Shown here: one piece after another, positions 14,887 through 28,126 of the stretch
Numbering within the stretch: the first letter of the stretch is position 1
Layout of the letters: each line of letters opens with the position of its first letter
Assembly (NCBI GenBank): GCA_013791885.1
Contig: VMSZ01000055.1
Span: forward strand, 1 to 55,239
Direction of reading: 5' to 3'
Origin: Sulfurimonas sp.
GTDB taxonomy: Bacteria; Campylobacterota; Campylobacteria; Campylobacterales; Sulfurimonadaceae
Length of the DNA: 55,239 nucleotides
Made by a program: the position numbers and the translations under genes
Notes under the pieces: model-generated
The model's input: the letters and a program-made list of their open reading frames with translations, nothing else
Told to the model about the DNA's origin: nothing
Databases searched by the model: none

Positions 14887-14919
14887 CCAATTCCCTTTGA
14901 CTTTAGCTATACTTTGTTT

Positions 14920-15741
14920 ATGAAAAATATTTACATAACAGACCTTGACCATACGTTTTTACGCAATGATTTGTCGCTGAGCGATTATACTAAAACTATT
15001 TGGAATGCAAAAGCAAATGACTCTATTTTGAGTGTCGCTACGGCGCGTACCTATGGAAGAACAGAGCGTTTTTTGGCGGGTGTGCATATAAACGCACCGA
15101 TGATTTTGCTCGATGGCGCGCTGATTGCGACGCGAGAGAAGAAGATTATCGATACCAAACTTCTTTCAAAAGAGCTGAGCGATGCGGTTATCGCCGAGGG
15201 TGAAAGATTTGGGATTTATCCTTTTGTTCTCGCACTCGCCGATGAAAATCTCAACGAGGCTTTTTTGCACTCAAGTATCCTAAACGCAGACCAGAAAAAA
15301 GTGCTTGCGCGTTACACAAAAGAGGACAATCTTCAAGAGCGCACAAACCTCAAAGCCATGGAAAAGAACTTTAAGATTGTCTATATGGGAGAGGAGCAGC
15401 TGCTTCGAGATTTAGAGAAACATCTTAAAGAAGTTTTTGGCGAAGAGATGAAGTATATTCTCGCTCCCGAGGCTTACATAGGATGTTACTTCCTTACGCT
15501 TTTACATAAAAACGCAGATAAGTCTCACGGCATACAAAGTGTGAGTGAATATATGGGTTTTGATTTGAAAAAACTCACGGTATTTGGAGATAATTTTAAC
15601 GACCTAGGGATGTTTGAACTCGCAGGAACTGCTGTTGCCATGGCAAATGCACAAGCAGGGGTAAAAGAAAAAGCGCACATAGTTTTGCCTCACACAAATG
15701 ATGAGGACGGAGTTGCGCGTTATTTGGAGAGTCTGAAATGA
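14920..15741 (+). CDS. Cof-type HAD-IIB phosphatase
   Basis: A 273-residue HAD hydrolase of subfamily IIB: motif I ITDLDHTFL at the N-terminus, a large alpha/beta cap in the middle, KSHGIQSVSEYMG (conserved Lys) and motif IV VFGDNFNDLGM. Family members dephosphorylate sugar phosphates. The ATG at 14920 is preferred over an in-frame TTG at 14914. Its stop overlaps the permease start by four bases, and the third gene is a hexose-phosphate mutarotase, so a sugar-phosphate substrate is likely. Identity of the sugar unknown. Confidence 0.8.
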   Translation: MKNIYITDLDHTFLRNDLSLSDYTKTIWNAKANDSILSVATARTYGRTERFLAGVHINAPMILLDGALIATREKKIIDTKLLSKELSDAVIAEGERFGIYPFVLALADENLNEAFLHSSILNADQKKVLARYTKEDNLQERTNLKAMEKNFKIVYMGEEQLLRDLEKHLKEVFGEEMKYILAPEAYIGCYFLTLLHKNADKSHGIQSVSEYMGFDLKKLTVFGDNFNDLGMFELAGTAVAMANAQAGVKEKAHIVLPHTNDEDGVARYLESLK

Positions 15742-17021
15742 GTGACACTTCAATGAAACGCAGCTCTAATGTTTTAGCCATGAGTATCATCGGTCTTCTG
15801 TTTTTCATCTTTGGTTTTGTGACTTGGCTTAACGGCTCACTTATTCCATTTCTCAAACTTATCTGTGATTTGAACGAGTTTGAAGCACTGTTTGTAAGCT
15901 TCGCGTTTTATATCGCTTATACGGTAATGGCGCTTCCTATGGCGTATGTGCTTGAGAGAACGGGGTACAAAAACGGGATGGCGCTTGGTTTGGGTGTGAT
16001 GGTTGTTGGAAGTCTGCTTTTTATTCCTGCGGCTCTAAGTGCAAACTTTTTATTCTTTTTACTCGCTCTTTTTACACTTGGCACGGGGCTTACCATCTTG
16101 CAGACTGCTTCAAATCCTTATGTCGTGCTCATAGGGCCAATCGAGAGTGCTGCGATGCGTATCAGTATTATGGGACTTATCAACAAAGGTGCGGGTGTTT
16201 TAGTGCCTCTGCTTTTTACGGCGCTCATTCTCTCTGATATTGCAGATTTCAGCACGCAAACGCTCTCTCAACTGCAGATAGAAGAGCTCTCAGGACGTTT
16301 GATAATTCCTTACATTATCATGGCCGCAGTACTAAGTTTCTTGGTGCTTTTAGTCAAGTTTTCCTCGCTTCCGGAGTTGGAGTTTGAAAAGAAGGATGAA
16401 TACGATAAAGAGTCAATCTTCCATTTTCCCCGTCTTATTTTAGGTGCTTTGGCGCTCTTTTTTTATGTGGGAATTGAAGTTATCGCGGGCGATACCATTG
16501 GTCTTTATGCCCAAAACTTAGGGGTATTAAACGCAACTGCAATGACCTCTTACACAATGGTTTTTATGGTTCTTGGTTACCTTGTCGGGGTTGCGTTTAT
16601 TCCTAGGTATCTTTCTCAGGAAAAAGCGCTTATCGGCTCGGCTCTTTTTGGCATACTCTTTTTGTTGGGTATTGCGTTTAGTTCCACTTCATCGCATGCT
16701 GTTAGTACGTTTTTATGGGGCTGGAGCGGTATTGCCACACTTCCTGACTCACTCGCGTTTGTCGCGTTTTTAGGGTTTGCAAATGCGCTTGTCTGGCCGA
16801 CTATCTGGCCGCTCGCACTTGAAGGTCTCGGACGTTATACAGCTAAAGGAAGCGCGTTGCTTATTATGGCTATAGCAGGCGGAGCAATCTTGCCGCTCAT
16901 TTTTGGAAAAATTGCACACTTGAGCGGGAATATGCAAATGAGCTACCTATATGGCATTGTCTGTTACGCGTTTATACTTATGTATGCCCTCAATTGGCAC
17001 AAAAAAAGTTCTTGGAGATAA
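15738..17021 (+). CDS. FHS-family sugar permease (glucose/galactose/fucose MFS type)
   Basis: A 427-residue major facilitator with about 12 hydrophobic segments. FFIFGFVTWLNGSLIPFLK and TILQTASNPYV are landmarks of the fucose-galactose-glucose:H+ symporter family (FucP/GluP). It sits in the inner membrane and should import a hexose or related sugar. It is translationally coupled to the HAD phosphatase upstream, and the mutarotase starts two bases after its stop. In a probably chemolithotrophic lineage this suggests some capacity to take up sugar. Confidence 0.85.
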   Translation: MSDTSMKRSSNVLAMSIIGLLFFIFGFVTWLNGSLIPFLKLICDLNEFEALFVSFAFYIAYTVMALPMAYVLERTGYKNGMALGLGVMVVGSLLFIPAALSANFLFFLLALFTLGTGLTILQTASNPYVVLIGPIESAAMRISIMGLINKGAGVLVPLLFTALILSDIADFSTQTLSQLQIEELSGRLIIPYIIMAAVLSFLVLLVKFSSLPELEFEKKDEYDKESIFHFPRLILGALALFFYVGIEVIAGDTIGLYAQNLGVLNATAMTSYTMVFMVLGYLVGVAFIPRYLSQEKALIGSALFGILFLLGIAFSSTSSHAVSTFLWGWSGIATLPDSLAFVAFLGFANALVWPTIWPLALEGLGRYTAKGSALLIMAIAGGAILPLIFGKIAHLSGNMQMSYLYGIVCYAFILMYALNWHKKSSWR

Positions 17022-17022
17022 G

Positions 17023-17856
17023 ATGATTACGCGTAAAAAACTTGAGAACGGTTTTGAATATATAGAAGTAAAAAATGAAAAAAGCTGTGCAAACATCGCC
17101 TTGCAAGGTGCGCATGTTTTTCATTATGCGCACAAGGAGCAGGAGCCTATTTTGTGGCTGAGTGCGGAGAGTGATTTTGAAATAGGCAAGGCAATTCGCG
17201 GCGGTGTGCCGATTTGCTGGCCGTCTTTTGGGATGAATAATCCGAATCTGCCTCAGCACGGTTTTGCCAGAACTTTTATGTTTGAGCTTATGGATTGTGT
17301 TGAAACAGATGAAAATAGCAGTGAGGTCAACTTGCGTTTGTGTGAGAGCAAGGAGAGTTTTGCATTTTGGCCTTACAAGTTTGAACTTAAAGTTAAAATT
17401 CGCATAAGCGACACCCTTGAAATTTCACTCACAACGACAAACAAAGACCAGAACAGTTTTACGCTTACTTCTGCTTTGCACTCTTATTTTAATATTTCTC
17501 ATATTGAAAATATCAGTATTGAGGGGCTTGAAAATAAGCCTTATCTTGATGCTTTGACAGGAAAAACGCAGCTGCAAAACAAAGAAATTCGTTTTAACGA
17601 AGAGTACGACTGCGTTTATCAGGAAGTGGACGGGGAGATTGTTTTAAAAGATACCATAAGAAATATCAGTATAAAAAATGAAGGCTCTTCAAGTGTGGTT
17701 GTCTGGAACCCGTGGATTGACAAATGCGCAAGAATGAGCGGAATGAATCCTGAGGCTTATAAAGAGTTTGTTTGTATTGAGAGCGCGAACGCCTTTGATG
17801 ATTTTAAAATCTTAAAACCAAATGAGAGCCACACGCTTAAGGCAACTCTATCTTAG
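17023..17856 (+). CDS. D-hexose-6-phosphate mutarotase (YeaD-like aldose epimerase)
   Basis: A 277-residue galactose-mutarotase-fold protein. Motifs include IRGGVPICWPSFG, LPQHGFARTF (catalytic His region), LTSALHSYFNI and VCIESANA (catalytic Glu region), all typical of the glucose-6-phosphate 1-epimerase group. It equilibrates anomers of hexose phosphates. GGAGATAAG precedes the ATG at 17023; the open frame upstream of that runs inside the permease gene. It ends convergently with the lytic transglycosylase gene, overlapping it by 20 bases. Confidence 0.83.
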   Translation: MITRKKLENGFEYIEVKNEKSCANIALQGAHVFHYAHKEQEPILWLSAESDFEIGKAIRGGVPICWPSFGMNNPNLPQHGFARTFMFELMDCVETDENSSEVNLRLCESKESFAFWPYKFELKVKIRISDTLEISLTTTNKDQNSFTLTSALHSYFNISHIENISIEGLENKPYLDALTGKTQLQNKEIRFNEEYDCVYQEVDGEIVLKDTIRNISIKNEGSSSVVVWNPWIDKCARMSGMNPEAYKEFVCIESANAFDDFKILKPNESHTLKATLS

Positions 17857-18823
17857 CAAGCCCTTTGTGGGCGTCGTAGGCTAAACGCATAACACCTACA
17901 GAGTAGTTTGAAGAGTTGTTGTAGCGCATAATTTTTTGCACATGTGCTCTTGTGTAATCAAGTTCACTTCTTCCACAAGAGTAGCAGTTGTAGGTTTTGT
18001 CGCTTTTTTTACTCTCGGCGTAGACAAAAGAGGCGTTGTCATTGGCAAAGTCGTAGTCGTACCACTCCTCTTCTATGACATCCATATTCCCCACCTTTTC
18101 CCAATCCATCAGTTCACTCCACTCTGCTCTTTGAGAGAGAAAATAACTCGCAGAGACGATAGCGTCAGACATATCGCTTAAATCGCCGATTTCACTTTTG
18201 TAGCCCTTTGCATACGCAAAGTTGTTTGGCATAAACTGAGGAATTCCAACAGCGCCGGCATAAGAGCTTTTGAGGTTACACTCATCGGGTGCGAGCTCTT
18301 TTTTGTAACAGTAATCTATGACGGCTATCATATTTGTTTTAGAGAGTTTTTTAAGCCATTTTTCTCTTGGAGTTTCATCTGTGACACGGGTTAAAAGGGT
18401 ATTAAATACAATAAAAGCATCATGTTTTGGCTCAATTTTTCCAAGACGCGTCTCTTTCATAAGAATGGAAGCGATAATCTCACGGTTCACGCCGTAAGTT
18501 TTTTCTGTATAGTCATACACTTCCTGATAGTCACGAAGATGTTCTACAATAACGCTCACATATTTTACAAGACTATTGTTGGCTCTTTTTTCATTTTGTG
18601 CATGTGCCTGTATCTCTTGAGGCTGAAAAAGTCTCCACGACTCTTCATCAAATTTTTTGGTTTTAAAGTAAGAAAGGAGAAATTTATTTGCATATTCATA
18701 AGAAACGCCGCCTTTGACGACACTCTCACAAATCTCTTCATAATCTTTATTTGCTAGTTTACAGTTTGTATATTCTGCGTAGAGCGAGCCGCACAGAAGC
18801 AGGCTTAAAAGTAGTTTGTTCAT
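17837..18823 (-). CDS. MltB-like lytic murein transglycosylase
   Basis: A 328-residue exported protein: signal peptide MNKLLLSLLLCGSLYA, then an SLT_2/MltB-type catalytic domain with the catalytic Glu near residue 124 in MKETRLG, and AGAVGIPQFMPNNF. Lytic transglycosylases cut glycan strands and form 1,6-anhydroMurNAc ends in the periplasm. The ATG at 18823 has AGGAAA upstream; the longer frame to 18877 is not needed. It follows the recycling operon on the same strand after about 108 bases containing a repeat, so it could feed that operon with anhydro-muropeptides. Confidence 0.85.
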   Translation of the reverse strand: MNKLLLSLLLCGSLYAEYTNCKLANKDYEEICESVVKGGVSYEYANKFLLSYFKTKKFDEESWRLFQPQEIQAHAQNEKRANNSLVKYVSVIVEHLRDYQEVYDYTEKTYGVNREIIASILMKETRLGKIEPKHDAFIVFNTLLTRVTDETPREKWLKKLSKTNMIAVIDYCYKKELAPDECNLKSSYAGAVGIPQFMPNNFAYAKGYKSEIGDLSDMSDAIVSASYFLSQRAEWSELMDWEKVGNMDVIEEEWYDYDFANDNASFVYAESKKSDKTYNCYSCGRSELDYTRAHVQKIMRYNNSSNYSVGVMRLAYDAHKGLAKIELP

Positions 18824-18860
18824 TTTTAATTTCCTAATAAAGTTTATATACAATTTTTTC

Positions 18861-18928
18861 TGCCTCGAATGAGGCAAGCTTCAGTGCCACAGCGGCTAGC
18901 GCAGCTTTGTGGGCTTTGCTCATAAAGC
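18861..18928 (+). repeat. Two-hairpin intergenic element, copy 1
   Basis: Hairpin 1 is TGCCTC-GAAT-GAGGCA (18861-18876), then a linker AGCTTCAGTGCC and CAGCGGCTAGCG, then an imperfect hairpin pairing CTTTGTG with CATAAAG. The linker is shared almost base for base with the copy at 43512 and, on the minus strand, with the one at 52417. It fills the gap between murU and the lytic transglycosylase gene. Confidence 0.7.
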
Positions 18929-18931
18929 GTT

Positions 18932-19579
18932 TCAAATATTGTTTATCTCATCTAATCTTTGCGGAGTGCCGATGTCGTGCCACACTCCTGTGTATAATTC
19001 TCCGTTAAGCAAATTCTGTGCTATTTTTTCACGAAGCAGTGGTGCGAGGGCAGATTTGCCTTTTCGTAAACCCATAAATATTTTTGGATTATAGTAGGCT
19101 ATGCCTGAAAAAGTATATTTTTGTCTGCCTTCATTGTAAACACAAGAATCCTCTAAGGCAAAGTCTCCTTTTAAATTATGCTCAGGGTTTGGCACTAAAA
19201 TGAGATGTGCAAGTTTGTCTTTAAGCTCGAAGTTCGAATTAAATTCATAGTCACAAAAAACATCGCCGTTTACAACTAAAAATGGCTCCTCACCCAAAAG
19301 AGTCAGTGCGTTTAGTATGCCTCCGGCGCTCTCAAGCGCTCCAAATTCGGACTCGTCTGAGTAAGTGATTGTAATGCCCCATTTTGAGCCGTTGCCGAGA
19401 GCTTCAGGAATTTTATGTCCCAAGTGTGCAAGGTTGATGATAATCTCACTAAAACCACTCTGTACGAGTTTTTCTATATGCCAGACTATGAGTGCTTTGC
19501 CGTGAACTTCCAAAAGCGGTTTTGGCAAGACATCGGTAAGCGGTCGCATTCGCTCCCCGCGTCCTGCGGCTAAAATCAT
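18932..19579 (-). CDS. murU: N-acetylmuramate alpha-1-phosphate uridylyltransferase MurU
   Basis: A 215-residue sugar-1-phosphate nucleotidyltransferase with the signature ILAAGRGERMRPLTDVLPKP at the N-terminus and VVNGDVF as the metal-binding Asp region. The short length and its coupling to amgK (four-base overlap) point to MurU, which makes UDP-MurNAc from MurNAc-1-phosphate and UTP. This route returns recycled MurNAc to precursor synthesis without the fosfomycin-sensitive MurA step. Alternative sugars cannot be excluded from sequence alone, but the context is strong. Confidence 0.85.
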   Translation of the reverse strand: MILAAGRGERMRPLTDVLPKPLLEVHGKALIVWHIEKLVQSGFSEIIINLAHLGHKIPEALGNGSKWGITITYSDESEFGALESAGGILNALTLLGEEPFLVVNGDVFCDYEFNSNFELKDKLAHLILVPNPEHNLKGDFALEDSCVYNEGRQKYTFSGIAYYNPKIFMGLRKGKSALAPLLREKIAQNLLNGELYTGVWHDIGTPQRLDEINNI

Positions 19580-20523
19580 TGCTTTGATGTCAGCTCCTCT
19601 AAAAGTTTTGCGAGTTCTTTGGTCTCTTCGTATCTGTGAGCTGCTTCTAAAGTGTATTTGAGTGTCAGCGGAATGTCTTTGAGATAGCCTTCTTTGCCAT
19701 CACGCAGATGCAGTCTTGAGAAGATACCGAGTACTTTTATATGGCGTTGCAAGCCCATAAAATCAAACCATTTGATGAAGTCTGCATCACTTGGGTTTAG
19801 CTCTTTTTTATCTCTAAAAAGAAGCACAAGTTCTTCTACCTCTTCGCGTTTAAAAGCAATATAACAATCTTTAAGAAGCGAGACTAAATCGTAAGTAATT
19901 GCTCCGCACATCGCATCCTGATAATCTATGACACCGATGTTTCCGTCATTTTGAATCATGATGTTGCGCGAGTGGTAATCACGGTGGACAAAAACATCTT
20001 GCGGTTGAGACAAGACAATTTCGCTGATTGCGTTGAGGGCTTCTGAGAGAACTGTTTGCTGCGTTTGACTGAGCGTATGGCCAAGTTTTTTTTGCAGGTA
20101 CCACTCCTGCATCAAATCCATCTCAAAATGTAAAAAAGCTTTGTCATAGAGGGGCAGAGCTGAAGCATCTGCATTTTGCATCTTGAGAATTTCATCTATT
20201 GCGTTTGTGTAAAGTTCTTTATAATTTTCTTGATTTAAAACATTGAGGTAGTGCGTGTTTCCAAAATCTTCTAAAATCAAAAAACCCTCGTCTAAGTTTT
20301 GCTCATAAATGTGAGGTGCGTTTACGCCTGCGTTTAGGAGACGTTTTGTTACATCTAAAAAAGGTTTAAGAGAGTTTTTTTCCAGAGAAGAGTCCATCAG
20401 TAAAACACTCTCATCACCCTTTGTGAGCCTGAAATACTGTCTAAAACTTGCATCTGCCGAGGCTATGGTAAGAGCATAATCTTTGTAAGGCGTAGATGAG
20501 AGCCAAGTGTGTAGTTTATCCAT
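19576..20523 (-). CDS. amgK: N-acetylmuramate/N-acetylglucosamine kinase AmgK
   Basis: A 315-residue aminoglycoside-phosphotransferase-fold kinase. The catalytic loop is FVHRDYHSRNIMI (HxDxxxxN) and the metal-binding Asp is in VIDYQDAMCG. AmgK phosphorylates the anomeric hydroxyl of MurNAc to give the substrate of MurU. It overlaps anmK by eight bases and murU by four. The assignment comes from the family pattern together with the murU neighbour. Confidence 0.87.
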   Translation of the reverse strand: MDKLHTWLSSTPYKDYALTIASADASFRQYFRLTKGDESVLLMDSSLEKNSLKPFLDVTKRLLNAGVNAPHIYEQNLDEGFLILEDFGNTHYLNVLNQENYKELYTNAIDEILKMQNADASALPLYDKAFLHFEMDLMQEWYLQKKLGHTLSQTQQTVLSEALNAISEIVLSQPQDVFVHRDYHSRNIMIQNDGNIGVIDYQDAMCGAITYDLVSLLKDCYIAFKREEVEELVLLFRDKKELNPSDADFIKWFDFMGLQRHIKVLGIFSRLHLRDGKEGYLKDIPLTLKYTLEAAHRYEETKELAKLLEELTSKQ

Positions 20524-21598
20524 AGATTCCGCCTAAAATAGAGTTTTTGCTTGCCCCTGTAACAGAGCTGAGATTGACCTCTTCTCTGTGAATCCGTTTG
20601 TATGCAAGCCAGGCAAAAGCCATCGATTCAAGTGCGTCTGCGCTAAAGCCGAGTGCATCGCTTGTGAGAACTTCTATTTTGCACAACTCTGAGAGTCTCT
20701 GCATTAAAAAGCCGTTTTTTGCCCCGCCGCCGCAGACTATGAGTAGTTCTGCTTCACTGCGTTTAACGTCATTTGCAATACTTCGGGCGGTGAGTTCTAA
20801 AAAAGTTGCCTGAATGTTTTCATCTTTTATGGTGTTGAAAATCGGCAGATGCGAAGCAAACCAGCTCTCGTTAAAGTACTCTCTGCCTGTACTTTTTGGC
20901 GGTGTTTTTTTAAAGTAGGCATCGCTTAAAAGAGAGTCTAAAAGGTCCTCGTCTGCTTTGCCGCTCCTTGCAAATTCACCGTCTCGGTCATAGTTTTGCT
21001 TCTTGCATTTTTGTATCCACATGTCAAGCAGGACATTCCCCGGACCTGTGTCCCAACCTTTGAGTTCGTCATAAAGTAGGCTTATATTCGCCATACCGCC
21101 GATGTTGATAACCGCAGTTTTTTTCCCAAGAGATGTAAAAGCAAACTCATGAAACGCAGGAGCAAAAGGCGCACCTTGCCCTCCGTTTGCTATGTCCATG
21201 CTTCTAAAGTCTGCGACAACACTTATACCTGTTTTTGCGCTTACAACATTAGGGCATCCAAGCTGCATAGAAAATGAGAAAGTGGCATTTGGCTCATGCC
21301 AGAGTGTTTGGCCGTGAAGTCCTATTGCAGTTATGTCTGTAGTATTGATGCGTTTTTCAAGAATAAACCTGTTGATTGCCCGTGCAAAAAGATACCCGAG
21401 TTTAGAATTAAGCGTACCGACTTTCTTGAGGGTGACGACACCTGAAATACAGGTGAGAATCTCATCTTTTAGCTCTTTTGGAAAAGGGTATTCATGCGAA
21501 TGCAGGAGTTTGCAAGAACTCTCGTTTATCTCACATAAAACCAAATCAATCCCGTCCATACTTGTTCCAGTCATTACTCCGATGTAAAGTTCACTCAT
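20516..21598 (-). CDS. anmK: Anhydro-N-acetylmuramic acid kinase AnmK
   Basis: A 360-residue ASKHA-fold kinase with the family signatures GVMTGTSMDGIDLVL, GLHGQTLWHEP, VINIGGMANISLL and WDTGPGNVLLD. It opens the anhydro ring of 1,6-anhydroMurNAc and phosphorylates O6 to give MurNAc-6-phosphate. It is coupled to the symporter (eight-base overlap) and to amgK. To feed AmgK/MurU, the 6-phosphate would need a MupP-type phosphatase; none is in this operon. Confidence 0.95.
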   Translation of the reverse strand: MSELYIGVMTGTSMDGIDLVLCEINESSCKLLHSHEYPFPKELKDEILTCISGVVTLKKVGTLNSKLGYLFARAINRFILEKRINTTDITAIGLHGQTLWHEPNATFSFSMQLGCPNVVSAKTGISVVADFRSMDIANGGQGAPFAPAFHEFAFTSLGKKTAVINIGGMANISLLYDELKGWDTGPGNVLLDMWIQKCKKQNYDRDGEFARSGKADEDLLDSLLSDAYFKKTPPKSTGREYFNESWFASHLPIFNTIKDENIQATFLELTARSIANDVKRSEAELLIVCGGGAKNGFLMQRLSELCKIEVLTSDALGFSADALESMAFAWLAYKRIHREEVNLSSVTGASKNSILGGIYG

Positions 21599-23060
21599 TG
21601 CTGCCTCCTTGCATGATTATAAACGCAACAAAAGTGCCCGCGCACATTTGCCACGAAAAGCTGATGTCTATGCCAAAAATATAAGGCTGAAGCGCTAAAA
21701 CAGTGAGAAATCCGCCGCCAAGCGCTAAAGGAACTGTGGTTGCGTTTCCTCTGTCTGTAAAAATTGCCGCAAAGTAAACACCCAAAAGTCCTGTGTATGC
21801 AAAGGTCATAACACCAAGGGCAAAGCCTATGAGCGAGAGTTCACTGTTTCTTTGCCAAAAGTAGCTCAGCATTGCCATCAGCGAGAGAACGACAGCAAAA
21901 AAGAGGACAGCATTTTGCGAAGCTTTTACAAAATGAAGTTCATCCACAGCGCTGCGTTTAAGCCTCCACGGTTTGTAAATGTCTTCTATGGCGACTGAGG
22001 CCATGGCGCCCAATACAGAGTTCGCGCTTGAGAGTGCCGCGGCAATTGCCCCAACGGTTACAAGCCCGCGAAGTCCCTCGGGCATCTCGTTTAAAATATA
22101 GTACATAAAGATGGTAATCTGCTCGCCGTCAAAACTTTGCACAACCGAGGCTTGTTGGTAATGAACAAACAAAAGCGCACCGATGGTCAAAAAAACAAGT
22201 ACGGTTGGAATGGTTAAAAGTACAGCCAAAAGAAGCGATTTTGCCGCCTCTTTTTCGTTTTTGCACGAGAGTACTCTTTGCGTCATATCCTGGTCAAGTC
22301 CAAACGCGGCAATGTTGAGCAGAAGCCAACCGGTAAGAAGCCCGAAAAGATTGAACTTTCCATCGAGCGAAGTGTCAATAAACGCAAGTTTGTTATGTTC
22401 GCTGAGTATCTCAAATATGGCTACATTCTCAAGCGAGTAATATAAAAATATGAGTACGGCAATGGCCGCGACCATATAGGTAAGAGCCTGAATGACATCA
22501 CTGAGGATGATGGACTTAATACCCCCAAAGTAGGTGTAAGCAAGAGCTCCAAACATTAAAATGGCAATAGCAATGCTTAGATGCACAAAAGAAACATCCC
22601 CAAAAAGTATCATGGAAACAGCGATGGCACCAATGTAGAGCCTTGCTCCGCTTGCCATGACGCGGCCTATGAGAAACATAATTCCCGCTTGCTTTTTTGC
22701 CGCTGCGCCATAGCGATTTTCCAGAAGTTCATAAACTGTGACGGCTCGCATGGCGTAGAACTTTGGAAGCAGTACAAACGCAACAAAGAGGGCTGCTAAA
22801 AGGGCGGAAAAATAAAAACCGATGAAGGTGAAATCGTTAGCATACGAGTACTCTGGCACCCCCAAAAAAGTCGCGGCAGACTGGCTTGTAGCCAAAACAG
22901 AGAGAGCGACGGCGTAAATCGGCATAGTGTTTGCACCCACAAAGTACTCTCTTGAAGTGCTTATTTTTGCCTTGCTCCAAATGTAAGAAGTGATAGCTAA
23001 AATGGCAAAATAGCCACCAAAAACGAGCCAGTCGAGCAGGGAAAAGTTGCTTTGCATCAT
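21591..23060 (-). CDS. Sodium:solute symporter (SSS family) of the peptidoglycan-recycling operon
   Basis: A 489-residue protein with about 13 hydrophobic segments and SSS-family landmarks such as WSKAKISTSREYFVGANTMP, SQSAATFLGVPEY and TYFGGIKSIILSDV. Family members couple Na+ influx to uptake of sugars, amino acids or sialic acids. It starts by ATGATG overlap with the stop of nagZ and overlaps anmK. Between an exported muropeptide-cleaving enzyme and a cytoplasmic anhydroMurNAc kinase, it is a good candidate importer for anhydroMurNAc or MurNAc, replacing AmpG; this substrate is inferred. Confidence 0.85.
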   Translation of the reverse strand: MMQSNFSLLDWLVFGGYFAILAITSYIWSKAKISTSREYFVGANTMPIYAVALSVLATSQSAATFLGVPEYSYANDFTFIGFYFSALLAALFVAFVLLPKFYAMRAVTVYELLENRYGAAAKKQAGIMFLIGRVMASGARLYIGAIAVSMILFGDVSFVHLSIAIAILMFGALAYTYFGGIKSIILSDVIQALTYMVAAIAVLIFLYYSLENVAIFEILSEHNKLAFIDTSLDGKFNLFGLLTGWLLLNIAAFGLDQDMTQRVLSCKNEKEAAKSLLLAVLLTIPTVLVFLTIGALLFVHYQQASVVQSFDGEQITIFMYYILNEMPEGLRGLVTVGAIAAALSSANSVLGAMASVAIEDIYKPWRLKRSAVDELHFVKASQNAVLFFAVVLSLMAMLSYFWQRNSELSLIGFALGVMTFAYTGLLGVYFAAIFTDRGNATTVPLALGGGFLTVLALQPYIFGIDISFSWQMCAGTFVAFIIMQGGSNE

Positions 23061-24730
23061 GGTTTTTTAAGCCCCAAATCTTTTATATTATTGCGTACAT
23101 CTGCCATAAACGCAGCGCCGGGGTCGACCTTTGCGGTTCTGTAATTTTTGTCTTGTTCAAGCCAAAGCGGGGAATCCTGCATTTTAAGATACTCATGATG
23201 ACCAAGAAGATACTCAATGTTAGGGTACTTTTGTTTGAGATACCGTATGAGTTTTATATTCGCTTCTACCTGTTCCGGTGTTAAATCTTCCTCTTTATTG
23301 TCCTGACCGCCAATGTTTTCTATGCCAATGCTTGAATAGTTGAGCCCGATAGTATGTCGTGCCATAAGGTTTTCGGGCATGAGTTGGTAGATTGTGCCAT
23401 CGCGATTGACTAAAAAATGTGCGGAGACATTTAATAAACTGGCTTTTTCTATGTAAGCCCGGCCCGCAACTATCTCTTCTGCTTTGAGGCGCTCGTGACA
23501 CAATTCAAAATTCATAATGCTTGTCCAGTGAAGTACTATGGATTTTGGCTTAATGTCTATGTTTTTTACATCTAAAGCGTAATGGTTTTTGATGTACTCT
23601 TTCGTGAGATTTATGCGTTTTTGCGAGAAAAGAATGGGTTTTTGAATAATTGCGTTTTTGGTATGGAGGTTGGCAATGCGTGCGTTTGCTTCTTGAATTC
23701 TAAGCTTGGAAATTTCTCCGTTTTGTACACTCTCATAGATTGCGTTTATGATATCTTTGACACTGTTTCCTTCAAGCTGATTGCCAAAAAGGAGCATATC
23801 CACTCCCGAATTAATGGCTAAAGCAACTCTTTCTTTGAGGCTGTAGTGCTGTGATATTGCCCCCATCTGCATATCGTCGCTGATTAAAACACCACGGTAG
23901 CCAAGTTGCTCACGCAGGAGTTTTGTGTTCGTGTTGTAAGAGAGAGTTGCAGGGTATTTGCTGTCAAGATGAGAGTTAAAAACATGCGCTGACATAATCA
24001 TATCAACTTCATTTTTTTCAATGAAATATTTGTAAGGCTCAAGTTCTTTTTCGCTCCAAGTATTGCTGACATCGACAAAACCGGCATGAGAATCACCTAA
24101 AGAAGAGCCATGTCCCGGAAAATGTTTTAAAACGCTGATAATATTTTGTTGCGAGAGTTCCTGCATAAAAATACCGGCATATTTTGTGATGGCGTCAGTA
24201 TCTCCGTAAGAGCGTTCAAGTCCAACAATCACTGTGTTTTTTGGCTCGATAGCTAAATCCACAACAGGTGCAAAGTCACAGTTTATGCCGTTGTCTTTGA
24301 GCATTTTCGCCTGTTTTTTATAGATTGCTCTTGCTTCTTCTTCGGGCATTTGAGCAATTTTTTGTGCTGAGGGGATTGACTCAAAACCATAGAGAGGCTT
24401 GAGTCTTGCAACTTTTCCGCCTTCTTGGTCGATAGAAATCAGCAGAGGTTTGGCAGCAAAACTTTTGAGCTGTTTTGTAAGGTCTTGGAGCTGAGCGGGT
24501 GAGCTGATATTTTTTGTCTGCGTTTTGTCGCTGTAGAGTCTATCGAACAAAATAACGCCGCCGAGTTCGTACTCCTGCAAATCTTTTACTATCGAAGAAT
24601 TTTCGTCTATTGACGCTCCATCAAAGCCGACAACAAGCATATGGCCTATCTCTTTTTTGAGAAGTGAATCATTGTCGACGGCTGCGTTTAGGCTCAAAAA
24701 TGTGAGTAAAAGTAGAGTGAAATATTTCAA
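23057..24730 (-). CDS. Exported NagZ (GH3) fused to an AmpD-type amidase
   Basis: A 557-residue two-domain enzyme. Residues 1-17 form a signal peptide (MKYFTLLLLTFLSLNAA). Residues about 20-350 are a GH3 beta-N-acetylglucosaminidase of the NagZ type: ISIDQEGGKVARL, KHFPGHGSSLGDSH (acid/base dyad) and ISDDMQM (nucleophile Asp). Residues about 385-550 are an Amidase_2 domain with zinc ligands in VLHWTS, GHHEY and KVDPGAAF plus the SIGIE motif. It would remove GlcNAc and the peptide from muropeptides in the periplasm. The start is TTG at 24730 with AAAGG upstream. NagZ and AmpD are usually separate cytoplasmic proteins. Confidence 0.88.
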   Translation of the reverse strand: MKYFTLLLLTFLSLNAAVDNDSLLKKEIGHMLVVGFDGASIDENSSIVKDLQEYELGGVILFDRLYSDKTQTKNISSPAQLQDLTKQLKSFAAKPLLISIDQEGGKVARLKPLYGFESIPSAQKIAQMPEEEARAIYKKQAKMLKDNGINCDFAPVVDLAIEPKNTVIVGLERSYGDTDAITKYAGIFMQELSQQNIISVLKHFPGHGSSLGDSHAGFVDVSNTWSEKELEPYKYFIEKNEVDMIMSAHVFNSHLDSKYPATLSYNTNTKLLREQLGYRGVLISDDMQMGAISQHYSLKERVALAINSGVDMLLFGNQLEGNSVKDIINAIYESVQNGEISKLRIQEANARIANLHTKNAIIQKPILFSQKRINLTKEYIKNHYALDVKNIDIKPKSIVLHWTSIMNFELCHERLKAEEIVAGRAYIEKASLLNVSAHFLVNRDGTIYQLMPENLMARHTIGLNYSSIGIENIGGQDNKEEDLTPEQVEANIKLIRYLKQKYPNIEYLLGHHEYLKMQDSPLWLEQDKNYRTAKVDPGAAFMADVRNNIKDLGLKKP

Positions 24731-24789: not shown

Positions 24790-25332
24790 TTAGAAATTTA
24801 TGACCGCGTTTATCTCTTCTAAGCGTTTAAAAAGAAGCATCTTTGCTCCGTCTTTGCTCACTATTTGCGGCTGGAAATGGTCTGAGACTACTTTAAAAAT
24901 AAAGTAATTTTTAATGGCTGGCGAGTGTGTCACCGCATCGTAAAAACCAAAAGATTCCATATCCGCTATTTCATATTGTTCATCATAAAGCTGCTCATCC
25001 ACACAGGTGAGTGTTTTGCCTTGAGTTTGAGTAAGTCTATAGAGATGGTTTTCGTATTCAATGGCGTTTATTTCTAATAACTCTCCAATAGCATACTCAG
25101 GTCGTGCCGCACAAATACCTACATTGAGATAAATATCTTCATCTGTAATGTCGTAAAGGTTAATAAGTGTCTGTGTCGCAGCTCTTGCGTTTTGGACACC
25201 CATTCCGCTGATTATGAGGCAAAACTCCCGGTTGCTAAAGAGAGTGAAGCCGTGCACGCTTTTTTTGGAGAGTTTGTATTTATCAACAAAAGCCTGAGCC
25301 TCGCCCTTGAGGGCCACCACTATATAAATCAT
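24790..25332 (-). CDS. Nucleoside phosphorylase/nucleosidase-superfamily protein
   Basis: A 180-residue protein of the PNP/UDP (MTA/SAH nucleosidase) superfamily: IVVALKGEAQAF at the N-terminus, SGMGVQNA, VGICAARPEYAIGEL and ADMESFGFYDAV, where Met-Glu contacts the ribose. It is shorter than typical members (about 230), mostly in the middle. It should cleave or bind a nucleoside; specificity unclear. It lies 59 bases upstream of nagZ on the same strand and could be transcribed with it, but there is no overlap and no functional link is obvious. Confidence 0.72.
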   Translation of the reverse strand: MIYIVVALKGEAQAFVDKYKLSKKSVHGFTLFSNREFCLIISGMGVQNARAATQTLINLYDITDEDIYLNVGICAARPEYAIGELLEINAIEYENHLYRLTQTQGKTLTCVDEQLYDEQYEIADMESFGFYDAVTHSPAIKNYFIFKVVSDHFQPQIVSKDGAKMLLFKRLEEINAVINF

Positions 25333-25509: not shown

Positions 25510-26196
25510 TTAACAAAAATCAAAAAAATCTAATTTAACCCCATGATTTACTTCCGTGGTAATAAACTGATGTTTGAATTTACCTCTGAGTCTATAAATA
25601 AGTGTTCTTAATGATGATGCACTCGGTATATTGTCTCTCCATAGTTCATCTTCTATTGTTTTAAAGCTCACGACATTCCCCTTTGCTTCGACAAGCAGCG
25701 ACAGCAGGGCTGTTTCTTTTTGGCTGAGTCTTAGAAAAACATCATGGTGAAAAAGCTTTTTTTCATCCATATAAAAACAATATCCTTCCCCCAAATCTAT
25801 AAGAAGCTGGTTTGTCTGCGGACTACGATTTTCTATTTTATATTCGGCAAGTTTAAGCAGGGCAAAGAGTTCACTGTCATTATGCGGTTTGGTCAGGTAA
25901 CCAAGCGGGTCAGTCTGAATGGCTTTGGCAATCGTTTTTTCATCTATGTACGCTGTGAGATATATGAGTAAAGAATCTGGATTCAGGCTTCTGTATAGAT
26001 CTATACCATCCATTTTTTCGTTGAGGTTTATGTCCATAATGATTAAATTTATACTCTTCTCCTGCAAAGTTTTTACCAACAAATGAGCTTTGGAAATATA
26101 ATGAACTTCAGAGTAGCCATAATTCTTTATGGAAGTTGCAAGTTCAAGAGCCAGTAAACTTTCATCTTCTACAATGAGTATTTTTAATTTAGACAT
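25510..26196 (-). CDS. Two-component response regulator with winged-helix output
   Basis: A 228-residue protein: receiver domain with acidic pocket ED at residues 10-12, phosphoacceptor Asp near residue 55 in LIIMDINLN, the Thr in YLTAY and the Lys in YLTKPH. Residues about 150-228 form an OmpR/PhoB-like C-terminal helix-turn-helix (LSQKETALLSLLVEAKGN, SLRTLIYRLRGK). It overlaps the kinase gene by eight bases and is its cognate regulator. It probably binds DNA; the divergent adhesin promoter at 28016-28126 is a nearby candidate target, which is inference. Confidence 0.9.
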   Translation of the reverse strand: MSKLKILIVEDESLLALELATSIKNYGYSEVHYISKAHLLVKTLQEKSINLIIMDINLNEKMDGIDLYRSLNPDSLLIYLTAYIDEKTIAKAIQTDPLGYLTKPHNDSELFALLKLAEYKIENRSPQTNQLLIDLGEGYCFYMDEKKLFHHDVFLRLSQKETALLSLLVEAKGNVVSFKTIEDELWRDNIPSASSLRTLIYRLRGKFKHQFITTEVNHGVKLDFFDFC

Positions 26197-28009
26197 CTTC
26201 TCTCCATGTTATAGTCGTTGTACACCCTGAAATAGAATCTATATGCATTTCTCCCTCAAGTTGTTTTGTAACCAGAGTCTCGACGATGGTCAGACCCAAT
26301 GAGTTGAAATTTTCTTGCTTGAATCCTTTCCCGCTGTCTTGAACTCTTAGAGAAACAATTCCCCTATTCTTGTGAATATTGATGTGTATTTCTCCATCAT
26401 CTTTAAACGCATGTTTGAAAGAGTTTGTCACCAGTTCATTCAAAATAAGACCACAGTAAATCAGGTTCTGGACTTTGACATCATGAGTTATCTTATAGTC
26501 AATTGTGATGTTTTTAGAGAAGTTTTCTTTCACGCTTTGTACAATCTTTTCAAAATATGGCAGAGTATTGAAATTTACATTTTCTTCTCTGAGATGCAAC
26601 AGTTCGTAGAGTTTGGTTATGGAGTGGATTCTATTTTTAGTGATGTTGAGCTGTTCTTTTGTTCCTTGTGCGTCAGTTTGATTTATTTGAAGTTTTATGA
26701 GCGATAAAATCATCTGCAGGTTGTTTTTAACGCGGTGGTTGAGTTCTTTGTAGAGTATCTCTTTTTCTTCAAGTGCCGAACTTAAATCTTTTGTTTTTTC
26801 TTCAACGAGTTCTTTGAGTTCCTCTTTTTGTTTTTGTCCTATGGCGAAAAGTCGTGCATTTGCCAACTCTTTTTCTTGGTTGAGAATATTTATTCTGTGG
26901 GCTAGGGCCACAGAAAAAAGCAGGGCTTCGCTGGCAAAAGCAAATTCGTTGATATACGCAAAATAGACGGAAATGTCAAAAAAATTCATGGTTCTGAGGT
27001 TTGTGAGTAAAAGAGAGACGATGACAAAACTCCAGCCAATGACATAGAACTTCGCCTGTTTAACACCGTTAGAAAGAGCATAAAAACCTATAAAAAGAAC
27101 AAAAAATCCAAGTGGGATGAAAAACGCAATGATGTTGAGGTTGAAAAGAAAGTTGTCATAACTCAGAAGTGCCACTATGGGAGTTATGTACAGATATGCC
27201 TTTAAAACTGTATCGAGTTTTTTGAATTGTGAAGTGTTTAAAAACTCTCTCGTAAAGAGAACAATGGAGATGATGAGAAACGAGATGTATAGCATACTCG
27301 TTTTTGTTATGATTTCTGAAAGCTCGTTTGAAAGAAGATAGAGTTGTATCACGCCGACATATACTGCCTGGAAAAAGAGTACACCTATGAGATATAAAAT
27401 ATAGTAAAAATAGGCTCTGTCTTTTGTAAATATCCACAACATGAAGTTATAAACAAGCAGTGTGGCAATAATGGTGAAAAATATAAAAATATAACTCTTA
27501 TGTTTATAATCTTTTTTTAAAAAGTCCTCTTTGTTCCATAAAACAAGATTTGCTATGAGGGCGGAGATATGGGAGTGTGCCTGAATGTAAAATGTTTTTT
27601 CTTCATGGGCATTTAAAATAATCTCAAAAGAAGGGTGAAGGCTGGACCTCTCTTGCGGCATCTGCAACATGCCATTAAGCTGCGTTTCATTGCCGTCGTA
27701 GAAAGTGAGATATTCCGCCATTGGATTAGCATATTCCAAAAGCTTACTGATGCTTTTGTCGGAACTGTTTTTAAGAGTGAATTTAATCCACAAAGTTTTA
27801 TTCGGCACAAAACCAAAACCTACAACACTTTGTGTATTTGGGAGAAAATCTTGCTTAAGTACTTCTGTTTTAGAGAGTGAACCGCTCTCATCCAAAAAGA
27901 GATGGGAATGCGACAAAACATCCAAGTTTGAACTACTTTCATCAACTTCAAGAGCATAAAGATTTAGGCTGAAAATCATAATAAATAATATTCTAAAAGC
28001 TACTTTCAT
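26189..28009 (-). CDS. 7TMR-DISM sensor histidine kinase (HisKA_2 type)
   Basis: A 606-residue membrane kinase. It has a signal-anchor start, an extracytoplasmic 7TMR-DISM extracellular domain of about 130 residues, seven hydrophobic helices, a coiled coil, and a HisKA_2/HWE-like core with the phospho-His in LNHRVKNNLQMIL, then HATPase motifs LNELVTNSFKHAF (N box) and DSGKGF. Periplasmic domains of this class are thought to bind carbohydrate-like ligands. The frame extends to 28057; ATG at 28015 or 28009 gives a normal membrane start, and neither has a clear ribosome site. It is divergent from the adhesin gene. Confidence 0.88.
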   Translation of the reverse strand: MKVAFRILFIMIFSLNLYALEVDESSSNLDVLSHSHLFLDESGSLSKTEVLKQDFLPNTQSVVGFGFVPNKTLWIKFTLKNSSDKSISKLLEYANPMAEYLTFYDGNETQLNGMLQMPQERSSLHPSFEIILNAHEEKTFYIQAHSHISALIANLVLWNKEDFLKKDYKHKSYIFIFFTIIATLLVYNFMLWIFTKDRAYFYYILYLIGVLFFQAVYVGVIQLYLLSNELSEIITKTSMLYISFLIISIVLFTREFLNTSQFKKLDTVLKAYLYITPIVALLSYDNFLFNLNIIAFFIPLGFFVLFIGFYALSNGVKQAKFYVIGWSFVIVSLLLTNLRTMNFFDISVYFAYINEFAFASEALLFSVALAHRINILNQEKELANARLFAIGQKQKEELKELVEEKTKDLSSALEEKEILYKELNHRVKNNLQMILSLIKLQINQTDAQGTKEQLNITKNRIHSITKLYELLHLREENVNFNTLPYFEKIVQSVKENFSKNITIDYKITHDVKVQNLIYCGLILNELVTNSFKHAFKDDGEIHINIHKNRGIVSLRVQDSGKGFKQENFNSLGLTIVETLVTKQLEGEMHIDSISGCTTTITWREDV

Positions 28010-28015
28010 GGACAT

Positions 28016-28126
28016 ATAGTAACATTTTAAAATATAAAAAGTGCATATGTGACACAAACTGTGACGTGGTTTTTGTAGTATCAGGTAATAGGTATTTTCG
28101 AAAAATCAAAAAATAGGGGTGTAAAA
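28016..28126. promoter_or_regulatory. Divergent control region between kinase and adhesin genes
   Basis: A 111-base AT-rich gap between two divergent starts. It contains the imperfect GTGACACAAACTGTGAC, with GTGACA and TGTGAC as near-direct/inverted halves, which might be an operator. AGGGGTG provides the ribosome site of the adhesin. No clear sigma-70 -35 is seen. Confidence 0.35.

Follow-up and report, generated by a model that had tools for sequence, protein, structure and literature searches.

A probable AmpG-free route of peptidoglycan recycling in Sulfurimonas, with predicted periplasmic breakdown and sodium-coupled import of anhydro-MurNAc

An operon in the window, the 55,239-nucleotide stretch of Sulfurimonas sp. 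DNA analysed here, probably serves an anabolic form of peptidoglycan recycling that dispenses with AmpG. Wall fragments would be broken down completely in the periplasm, and the resulting anhydro-MurNAc would then be imported together with Na+.

Organization of the operon

The operon occupies positions 18932-24730 of the minus strand and consists of five genes, which encode, in order, a NagZ-amidase fusion, an SSS symporter, AnmK, an AmgK-like kinase and MurU. Successive genes overlap by 4, 8, 8 and 4 nt, and all five overlapping genes of the first-pass annotation were recovered. The genes and their neighbours are the following.

24790..25332, minus strand: short nucleosidase-like protein, encoded immediately before the fusion gene (weak family matches only)
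23057..24730, minus strand: NagZ-amidase fusion, 557 aa (signal approximately 1-17, GH3 24-355, Amidase_2 394-538)
24680..24730, minus strand: predicted Sec signal peptide of the fusion, MKYFTLLLLTFLSLNAA (in-house rule)
21591..23060, minus strand: SSS-family sodium:solute symporter, 489 aa, candidate anhydro-MurNAc importer (PF00474, 89.3 bits; SiaT likeness; AnmK co-occurrence)
20516..21598, minus strand: AnmK, anhydro-MurNAc kinase (NF007139, 455.2 bits, cut-off 367)
19576..20523, minus strand: AmgK-like MurNAc/GlcNAc kinase (best NCBIfam match NF045759, 266.3 bits, below the cut-off of 550)
18932..19579, minus strand: MurU, MurNAc-1-phosphate uridylyltransferase (NF045761, 293.4 bits, cut-off 250)
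17837..18823, minus strand: SLT_2 lytic transglycosylase, MltB-like, with predicted signal peptide (PF13406, 102.4 bits; signal rule)
17023..17856, plus strand: aldose-1-epimerase-like protein beside the NagP-like gene (PF01263, 154.2 bits; the start is our reading of an ORF listed from 16951)
15738..17021, plus strand: NagP/GluP-like MFS sugar transporter, candidate GlcNAc importer (NF046060, 509.4 bits, cut-off 625; TIGR01272 gluP, 233.2 bits, cut-off 202.55)
14914..15741, plus strand: Cof-type HAD phosphatase, candidate MurNAc-6-phosphate phosphatase (TIGR00099, 137.2 bits, cut-off 137)

An MltB-like gene had also been placed after murU. An SLT_2 gene does end at 17837, and by our reading of the listed ORF it probably starts at the ATG at 18823, which leaves a gap of 108 nt to murU instead of an overlap. 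Its product scores 69.3 bits against the MltB equivalog cut-off of 281.4, and assignment as MltB proper was therefore rejected. Promoter and terminator scans gave counts near those of shuffled sequence (21 versus 17.2 and 9 versus 8.3, respectively).

The NagZ-amidase fusion and its predicted export

The amino-terminal part of the fusion is a GH3 domain (PF00933, 211.2 bits) that scores 183.5 bits with the NagZ equivalog NF003740, under the cut-off of 207. The motifs KHFPGHGSS, DSH and SDD, which we take to be the His/Asp dyad loop and the Asp nucleophile of GH3 NagZ enzymes, are invariant in an alignment of 10 of 10 fusions. The carboxy-terminal part matches PF01510 with 76.4 bits and resembles AmpD in structure comparison (Z 16.1; best chain Z 17.0). 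Residues H401, E471, H511, K534 and D536 are invariant in the fusion alignment, and H401, H511 and D536 are presumably the zinc ligands. The AmpD equivalog NF008758 is the sole family match in all 13 amidases examined. Here it yields only 36 bits, or 39.6 bits in the comparison of those 13 with the domain from the window, against a cut-off of 143, so that AmpD proper was rejected and the name expresses likeness rather than membership.

The fusion gene begins with a TTG codon preceded by AAGG, and its signal peptide was called by a crude in-house rule in which the start codon is freely chosen. All 10 fusions, all 27 NagZ homologs and nine of the 10 SLT_2 proteins gave positive calls. Calls were few in the comparison sets, which served as cytosolic controls (AnmK 0/24, AmgK 0/23, HAD 0/9, epimerase 0/5, response regulator 0/1, MurU 3/22, nucleosidase-like 1/9). 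Because membrane proteins can also pass (NagP-like 5/5, SSS 1/26), the rule cannot decide between a signal peptide and an initial membrane helix. These calls support the prediction that the fusion carries a signal peptide and is periplasmic. NagZ with a signal peptide is also found in relatives without AnmK, and thus export alone is not proof of recycling. The exported NagZ-AmpD fusion of the first-pass annotation is accordingly retained as a GH3/Amidase_2 fusion with a predicted signal peptide, and its amidase half is not assigned to AmpD.

Search of the genome for AmpG, a second NagZ or amidase, and MurQ

The host genome is 99.99% complete. No AmpG was detected in it, the best score with TIGR00901 being 12 bits; an AmpG elsewhere in the genome is rejected at the sensitivity of this model, for which two of 14 control genomes yield a match above the cut-off. 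The fusion is the only match in the genome to GH3 and the only match to Amidase_2, and both activities are consequently predicted to lie in a protein with a signal peptide. The proposal that a symporter takes the place of AmpG, with no cytoplasmic NagZ or AmpD alongside, agrees with both searches. A MurQ etherase was likewise not found in the genome (best 28.2 bits, cut-off 302). The marks of E. coli-type recycling, namely AmpG, NagZ or AmpD lacking a signal peptide, and MurQ, all appear to be missing, as far as the crude rule can judge signal peptides.

The symporter and its likely substrate

The symporter carries an SSF domain (PF00474, 89.3 bits, threshold 22.8), and its closest PDB entry by both sequence and fold is the sialic acid transporter SiaT (5nv9, TM 0.85/0.86), with 26% identity in the fold search. 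Residue roles in SiaT were taken from the available text of PMC5931594 and mapped by alignment. The Na2 residues Ser342 and Ser343 correspond to S344 and S345, of which S345 is invariant and position 344 is Ser or Thr across the 26 symporter orthologs. At Na3, Asp182 and Ser346 are kept as D188 and S348, whereas Ser345 is replaced by N347. The carboxylate contacts Ser60 and Thr63 are retained as S61 and T64, whereas Arg135 and Gln82 have become A136 and Y83. Two arginines, R133 and R140, probably lie near the lost Arg135 position on the same helix. Anhydro-MurNAc and sialic acid both possess a carboxylate group, and we infer from the sequence and its context that anhydro-MurNAc is the substrate. 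In a tree of the symporters, 9 of whose 23 inner branches are open, those adjoining fusions are split rather than forming one group (three changes).

Co-occurrence and gene neighbourhoods

Among 298 genomes of the class, 26 encode a symporter ortholog and 27 encode AnmK: both are present in 26, AnmK alone in one, the symporter alone in none, and neither in 271. This co-occurrence spans five of 58 genera in two families and does not amount to 26 independent events. The one genome with AnmK only is in 240 contigs. AmpG-like matches, none of them at the cut-off, occur in 18 of the 298 genomes, and none of these 18 has AnmK. However, a match (E 1e-10) is also lacking in 253 of the 271 AnmK-free genomes; with AmpG so uncommon throughout the class, its exclusion from AnmK genomes is not significant (p 0.39).

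Neighbourhoods were named for the best 80 of 565 confirmed symporter relatives; these 80, judged by record title, all come from Campylobacterota. Directly before the symporter (same strand, gene end within 300 nt) lies a fusion in 30 loci, NagZ in 24 and an amidase in 18 (72 of the 80 together); seven loci have none and one meets a contig end. On the downstream side, the first labelled gene to start within 1.5 kb is AnmK in 55 loci, AmgK in five and an epimerase in one, with none in 10 and a contig end in nine. NagZ, an amidase or a fusion is present in 77 of the 80 loci, AnmK in 68, AmgK in 58 and MurU in 49. As the same genes recur across the sampled genomes, a chance gathering of unrelated genes was rejected. 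Homologs of the nucleosidase-like protein occur in 25 of the loci. A NagP-like match of at least 65% identity was found in all 16 AnmK genomes of the window's family (one of them over partial length) and in none of the 11 of the other family.

The phosphatase step

AnmK produces MurNAc-6-phosphate and the substrate of AmgK is MurNAc, so a phosphatase is required between them. In Pseudomonas this step is supplied by MupP, according to the available text of PMC5371407. No phosphatase gene is present among the five genes, and for this reason the operon is not self-contained as had been claimed. Three Gph-like HAD proteins in the genome were picked up by the related model TIGR01449. Their matched stretches, 193, 186 and 204 aa long, reach 87.7, 52.1 and 37.1 bits, respectively, far under the MupP cut-off of 359. 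Some ORFs between the symporter and AnmK recur in three to four loci, but none does so in most, and on this count a conserved extra gene at this position seems unlikely to be the phosphatase. All 27 AnmK genomes contain the Cof-type HAD, compared with 25 of the other 271, and in several Sulfurovum-type loci its gene lies beside MurU in the opposite orientation. This co-occurrence and neighbourhood make the protein encoded at 14914-15741 a candidate MurNAc-6-phosphate phosphatase.

Proposed route and alternative readings

Lytic transglycosylases yield GlcNAc-anhydroMurNAc-peptides, and would release them here into the periplasm. The fusion, judged by its signal peptide and motifs, would then strip the peptide with its Amidase_2 domain and GlcNAc with its NagZ domain. 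Free anhydro-MurNAc would enter with Na+ through the symporter, as suggested by fold, Na+ residues, neighbourhood and co-occurrence. AnmK, by family membership, would open and phosphorylate it to MurNAc-6-phosphate, which a phosphatase, perhaps the Cof-type HAD, would convert to MurNAc. AmgK (a best-match assignment) and MurU (a family member) would complete the synthesis of UDP-MurNAc. In Sulfurimonas, GlcNAc may re-enter via the adjoining NagP-like transporter.

SSS members transport many solutes, and the sodium symporter superfamily member MurT of Tannerella carries MurNAc in the available descriptions (PMC5790795, PMC7670621). The present symporter could thus carry another digestion product (for example GlcNAc, MurNAc in free form or the stem peptide), with anhydro-MurNAc entering elsewhere. 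The name of the AmgK model (MurNAc/GlcNAc kinase) and the loss of SiaT Arg135 and Gln82 favour this, yet we consider it unlikely: the co-occurring partner AnmK acts on the anhydro sugar, the carboxylate-holding Ser60 and Thr63 are kept, and GlcNAc has its own NagP-like carrier in the window's family, though not in the other. The symporter may also transport both MurNAc and anhydro-MurNAc.

It is similarly improbable that the system chiefly scavenges wall debris of other bacteria, a source that Tannerella exploits according to the available text of PMC7670621. Enzymes outside the cytoplasm could meet foreign fragments, but behind an outer membrane they would mostly encounter the cell's own. Moreover, the operon ends at UDP-MurNAc and no MurQ was found in the genome, which suggests that the sugar goes back into the wall instead of being burned. 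Scavenging and recycling of the cell's own wall are compatible. In Rhizobiales, ABC import stands in for AmpG (PMC9790009, available text), and a peptide ABC transporter might similarly import whole muropeptides, as YejBEF-YepA does in Agrobacterium, leaving the fusion another role such as wall remodelling. This seems very unlikely, because the sole GH3 and sole Amidase_2 of the genome bear a predicted signal peptide and imported muropeptides would meet no cytoplasmic counterpart of either; the gathering of NagZ, amidase or fusion genes (77/80) and AnmK (68/80) near the symporter also speaks against it.

Relation to known systems

The route of periplasmic breakdown and symport can be compared with several systems, each as given in the available text of the source cited. 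The Pseudomonas anabolic route to UDP-MurNAc employs AmpG, NagZ, AmpD, AnmK, MupP, AmgK and MurU (PMC5371407, PMC13041923). The end product is shared, and AnmK, AmgK-like and MurU genes lie side by side here; in contrast, the genome gave no AmpG match, none of its three Gph-like HADs is of MupP type by score, NagZ and amidase are fused behind a predicted signal peptide, and an SSS symporter is part of the operon. In the MurT-MurK-MurQ system of Tannerella, the MurNAc transporter sits with a muramic kinase (PMC5790795), a likeness drawn from published description; T. forsythia AmgK and MurU also serve as tools (PMC13041923). However, MurT is reported for MurNAc, and T. forsythia possesses AmpG, with no AnmK ortholog predicted (PMC7670621). 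Some Gram-positives and mycobacteria have their NagZ outside the membrane (PMC6572805), and the solved proteins closest to the GH3 part include Bacillus NagZ (YbbD) and mycobacterial LpqI. These are Gram-positive or mycobacterial proteins, and LpqI, a lipoprotein of one domain, has no amidase (PMC6572805). Agrobacterium YejBEF-YepA, an ABC muropeptide importer, also replaces AmpG by another carrier, but with cytoplasmic NagZ and AmpD (PMC9790009) instead of a symporter and signal-peptide-bearing enzymes.

The layout is different from the usual one, as had been proposed, in that AmpG was not found, the fusion has a predicted signal peptide and the symporter tracks AnmK. Its single parts have precedents in exported NagZ (PMC6572805) and Tannerella MurT (PMC5790795), and it is the combination that looks new. 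A search to which most subscription papers were inaccessible returned no literature joining Sulfurimonas with peptidoglycan recycling. The fullest version of the claim holds that, in a gram-negative lineage, the whole breakdown is periplasmic, bare 1,6-anhydro-MurNAc enters through a Na+ symporter dedicated to it, which would be the first carrier of this kind, the Cof-type HAD is a second MurNAc-6-phosphate phosphatase unrelated to MupP, and a NagP-like protein carries GlcNAc; for this whole set we judge the case evenly balanced.

In textbook gram-negative recycling, disaccharide-peptides are imported and can be sensed inside the cell. If monosaccharides are instead cut free outside, no muropeptide would enter the cytoplasm, and the usual cytoplasmic sensing of wall damage through muropeptides could not work. 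The sodium gradient would pay for sugar uptake. The analysis also names testable candidates for two steps, the carrier of anhydro-MurNAc and a phosphatase other than MupP.

Organization of a putative recycling operon

Five overlapping genes followed by that of an SLT_2 protein lie at 17837-24730, as the first-pass annotation had described, and all are on the minus strand of the window. Open reading frames and family matches give:

23057-24730, minus: fusion of NagZ (GH3) and an amidase (Amidase_2)
21591-23060, minus: SSS-family sodium:solute symporter
20516-21598, minus: AnmK
19576-20523, minus: AmgK-like protein
18932-19579, minus: MurU
after MurU, down to 17837, minus: SLT_2 protein

Neighbouring genes from the fusion to MurU overlap by 4 to 8 nt at each junction. 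The genome carrying this contig is 2.52 Mb in 75 contigs and is 99.99% complete. Immediately upstream of the fusion, 24790-25332 (minus) encodes a 180-amino-acid nucleosidase-like protein that is barely matched by models (NF005522, 23.9 bits versus 161; Pfam PNP_UDP_1 matches one of nine homologues, E 0.0032). An apparent histidine kinase and response regulator (25510-28057) adjoin a lipoprotein-like repeat protein of 1606 amino acids (28127-32947, plus), cadherin-like going by its translation.

Gene neighbourhoods were counted in 80 named loci, the best 80 of 565 confirmed symporter relatives, among which Sulfurimonas loci are the nearest (symporter identity 85%). Directly upstream of the symporter, these best 80 of 565 carry a fusion (30), NagZ (24), an amidase (18), none of these (7) or a contig end (1). 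NagZ, amidase or fusion occurs somewhere in 77 of the 80, the other three being contigs of 3.2-4.1 kb; AnmK is present in 68, AmgK in 58, MurU in 49 and the nucleosidase-like protein in 25, and many of the contigs are short. The first gene is a stand-alone amidase in Sulfurovum-type loci, and in Sulfurimonas loci it is a stand-alone NagZ in part and the fusion in the remainder. Because NagZ and the amidase are fused in some species and alternate beside the same transporter in others, they point to one pathway. We hold with high confidence that the operon serves recycling.

In a tree of 26 symporters, the amidase-type sequences and that of G234, a genome with neither NagZ nor amidase beside its symporter and with AnmK on a different contig, stand opposite the fusion and NagZ types (branch support 89/91); the fusion-type sequences do not form one group. 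DNA methyltransferase-like ORFs, judged on sequence starts alone, follow the symporter in loci L100 and L161 (probably one contig), L156 and L226, and in the last two they sit between the symporter and AnmK.

Co-occurrence with AnmK and search for an AmpG route

Symporter orthologues (identity at least 55%) were found in 26 of 298 genomes sampled from the class, and AnmK in 27. Both are present in 26, AnmK alone in one (G284, in 240 contigs), the symporter alone in none, and neither in 271. The count of 26 leaves out G050, which has only a 28% relative; G288 holds two further symporter matches. As the carriers are confined to 5 of 58 genera in two families, these co-occurrences are not independent events. 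The window's own genus is represented by 18 sampled genomes; the two genes are found together in 14 of these and are both absent from the other four.

A search for ampG had been named as a check on the proposed layout, and the AmpG model scored at best 12 bits in the window's own genome; the best MurQ score there was 28.2 bits (cut-off 302). The fusion is this genome's sole GH3 match and sole Amidase_2 match. Across the class, AmpG-like matches occur in 18 of 298 genomes, none reaching the cut-off, and in none of the 27 AnmK genomes, an exclusion that is not significant alone (p 0.39) because few genomes of the class have an AmpG-like match at all.

Export of the fusion protein

Translation of the fusion starts at a TTG codon with AAGG ahead of it, and its first residues read MKYFTLLLLTFLSLNAA. 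A single protein spanning the entire fusion occurs in 10 of 298 genomes, the window's included, and all ten have a predicted signal peptide by a crude rule; 120 of 298 match the fusion in some way, and this survey covered part of them. With the start codon left free, the rule is also passed by 27/27 NagZ homologues and 9/10 SLT_2 proteins, by MurU in 3/22 and the nucleosidase-like protein in 1/9, and by AnmK (0/24), AmgK (0/23), HAD (0/9), epimerase (0/5) and response regulator (0/1) in no case. Since membrane proteins pass as well (NagP-like 5/5, SSS 1/26), the rule does not distinguish signal peptides from first membrane helices. When it was applied more widely, to 49 loci, 18 of 21 distinct stand-alone amidases passed, as did the NagZ homologues of all 35 loci that have one, relatives from other families included; NagZ with a signal peptide is therefore not peculiar to this operon. 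We consider, with fairly high confidence, that cell-wall fragments are processed in the periplasm.

The amidase part, annotated initially as AmpD, has a zinc amidase fold (best match Clostridium LysC, Z 17.0; AmpD, Z 16.1), but reaches only 39.6 bits against the AmpD model (cut-off 143). That model is the sole NCBIfam match, a weak one, of 13/13 amidases. In G254, of the window's genus, genes for nucleosidase-like, NagZ, SLT_2 and SDR proteins follow one another head to tail (L087, 9161-12406). Matches to the symporter, AnmK and the amidase are all absent from that genome, and NagZ therefore either outlives lost recycling or came before it.

Substrate of the symporter

By sequence, the nearest solved relative of the symporter is SiaT, which is also the nearest fold (5nv9; TM 0.85/0.86, 26% identity) to its AlphaFold model (mean pLDDT 85.2). 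In SiaT, according to PMC5931594, Na+ is held by Ser342 and Ser343 at Na2 and by Ser345, Ser346 and Asp182 at Na3, and Ser60, Thr63 and Arg135 hold the carboxylate of sialic acid. Alignment with SiaT places S344 and S345 at the Na2 positions, N347, S348 and D188 at Na3, and S61 and T64 at Ser60 and Thr63; Arg135 and Gln82 are without counterpart in this alignment, being replaced by A136 and Y83. R133 and R140, invariant in 26 orthologues, lie about one helical turn either side of the Arg135 position. These features fit, and do not prove, Na+-coupled carriage of an acidic amino sugar; the main substrate is probably anhydro-MurNAc.

A candidate for the missing phosphatase

AnmK yields MurNAc-6-phosphate and AmgK acts on MurNAc, steps linked in Pseudomonas by the HAD phosphatase MupP, as described in PMC5371407. 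Contrary to the earlier proposal, the operon is consequently not self-contained, since this step is missing from it, and the genome's three Gph-like HADs, the only ones scored, reach 87.7, 52.1 and 37.1 bits against the MupP model (cut-off 359).

The Cof-type HAD at 14914-15741 (plus) is a candidate for this role. It occurs in 27/27 AnmK genomes (identity at least 49%) and in 25/271 without AnmK (37-52%); within the window's genus the figures are 14/14 and 0/4. At most about 1.3 kb separates it from MurU, on the opposite strand, in four loci (L083, L111, L112 and L116), and in seven (L205, L206, L212, L214, L218, L221 and L224) it is the next labelled gene to MurU, again on the opposite strand. 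We give even chances that it is the missing phosphatase. In the window and several other Sulfurimonas loci, a HAD-NagP-epimerase cluster faces the operon, HAD first. Its NagP-like protein may be a GlcNAc carrier, a tentative assignment that we rate somewhat below that of the HAD. Among genomes with AnmK, all 16 from the window's family have this protein at an identity of at least 65%, and none of the 11 from the other family does. A glucose role for the cluster is possible, the NagP-like protein also scoring above the gluP model cut-off.

Relation to known systems

Our literature search returned nothing pairing Sulfurimonas with peptidoglycan recycling and, among the matches listed, no description of a periplasmic NagZ-amidase with a symporter. 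Single elements of the proposed different layout have counterparts elsewhere: NagZ acts outside the membrane in some Gram-positives and as mycobacterial LpqI (PMC6572805); Tannerella MurT is a MurNAc transporter of the sodium-symporter superfamily, in an organism with AmpG and no predicted AnmK (PMC5790795, PMC7670621); and an ABC carrier replaces AmpG in Agrobacterium (PMC9790009). With no earlier description found in this literature, the layout appears to be a new variation on known peptidoglycan recycling.
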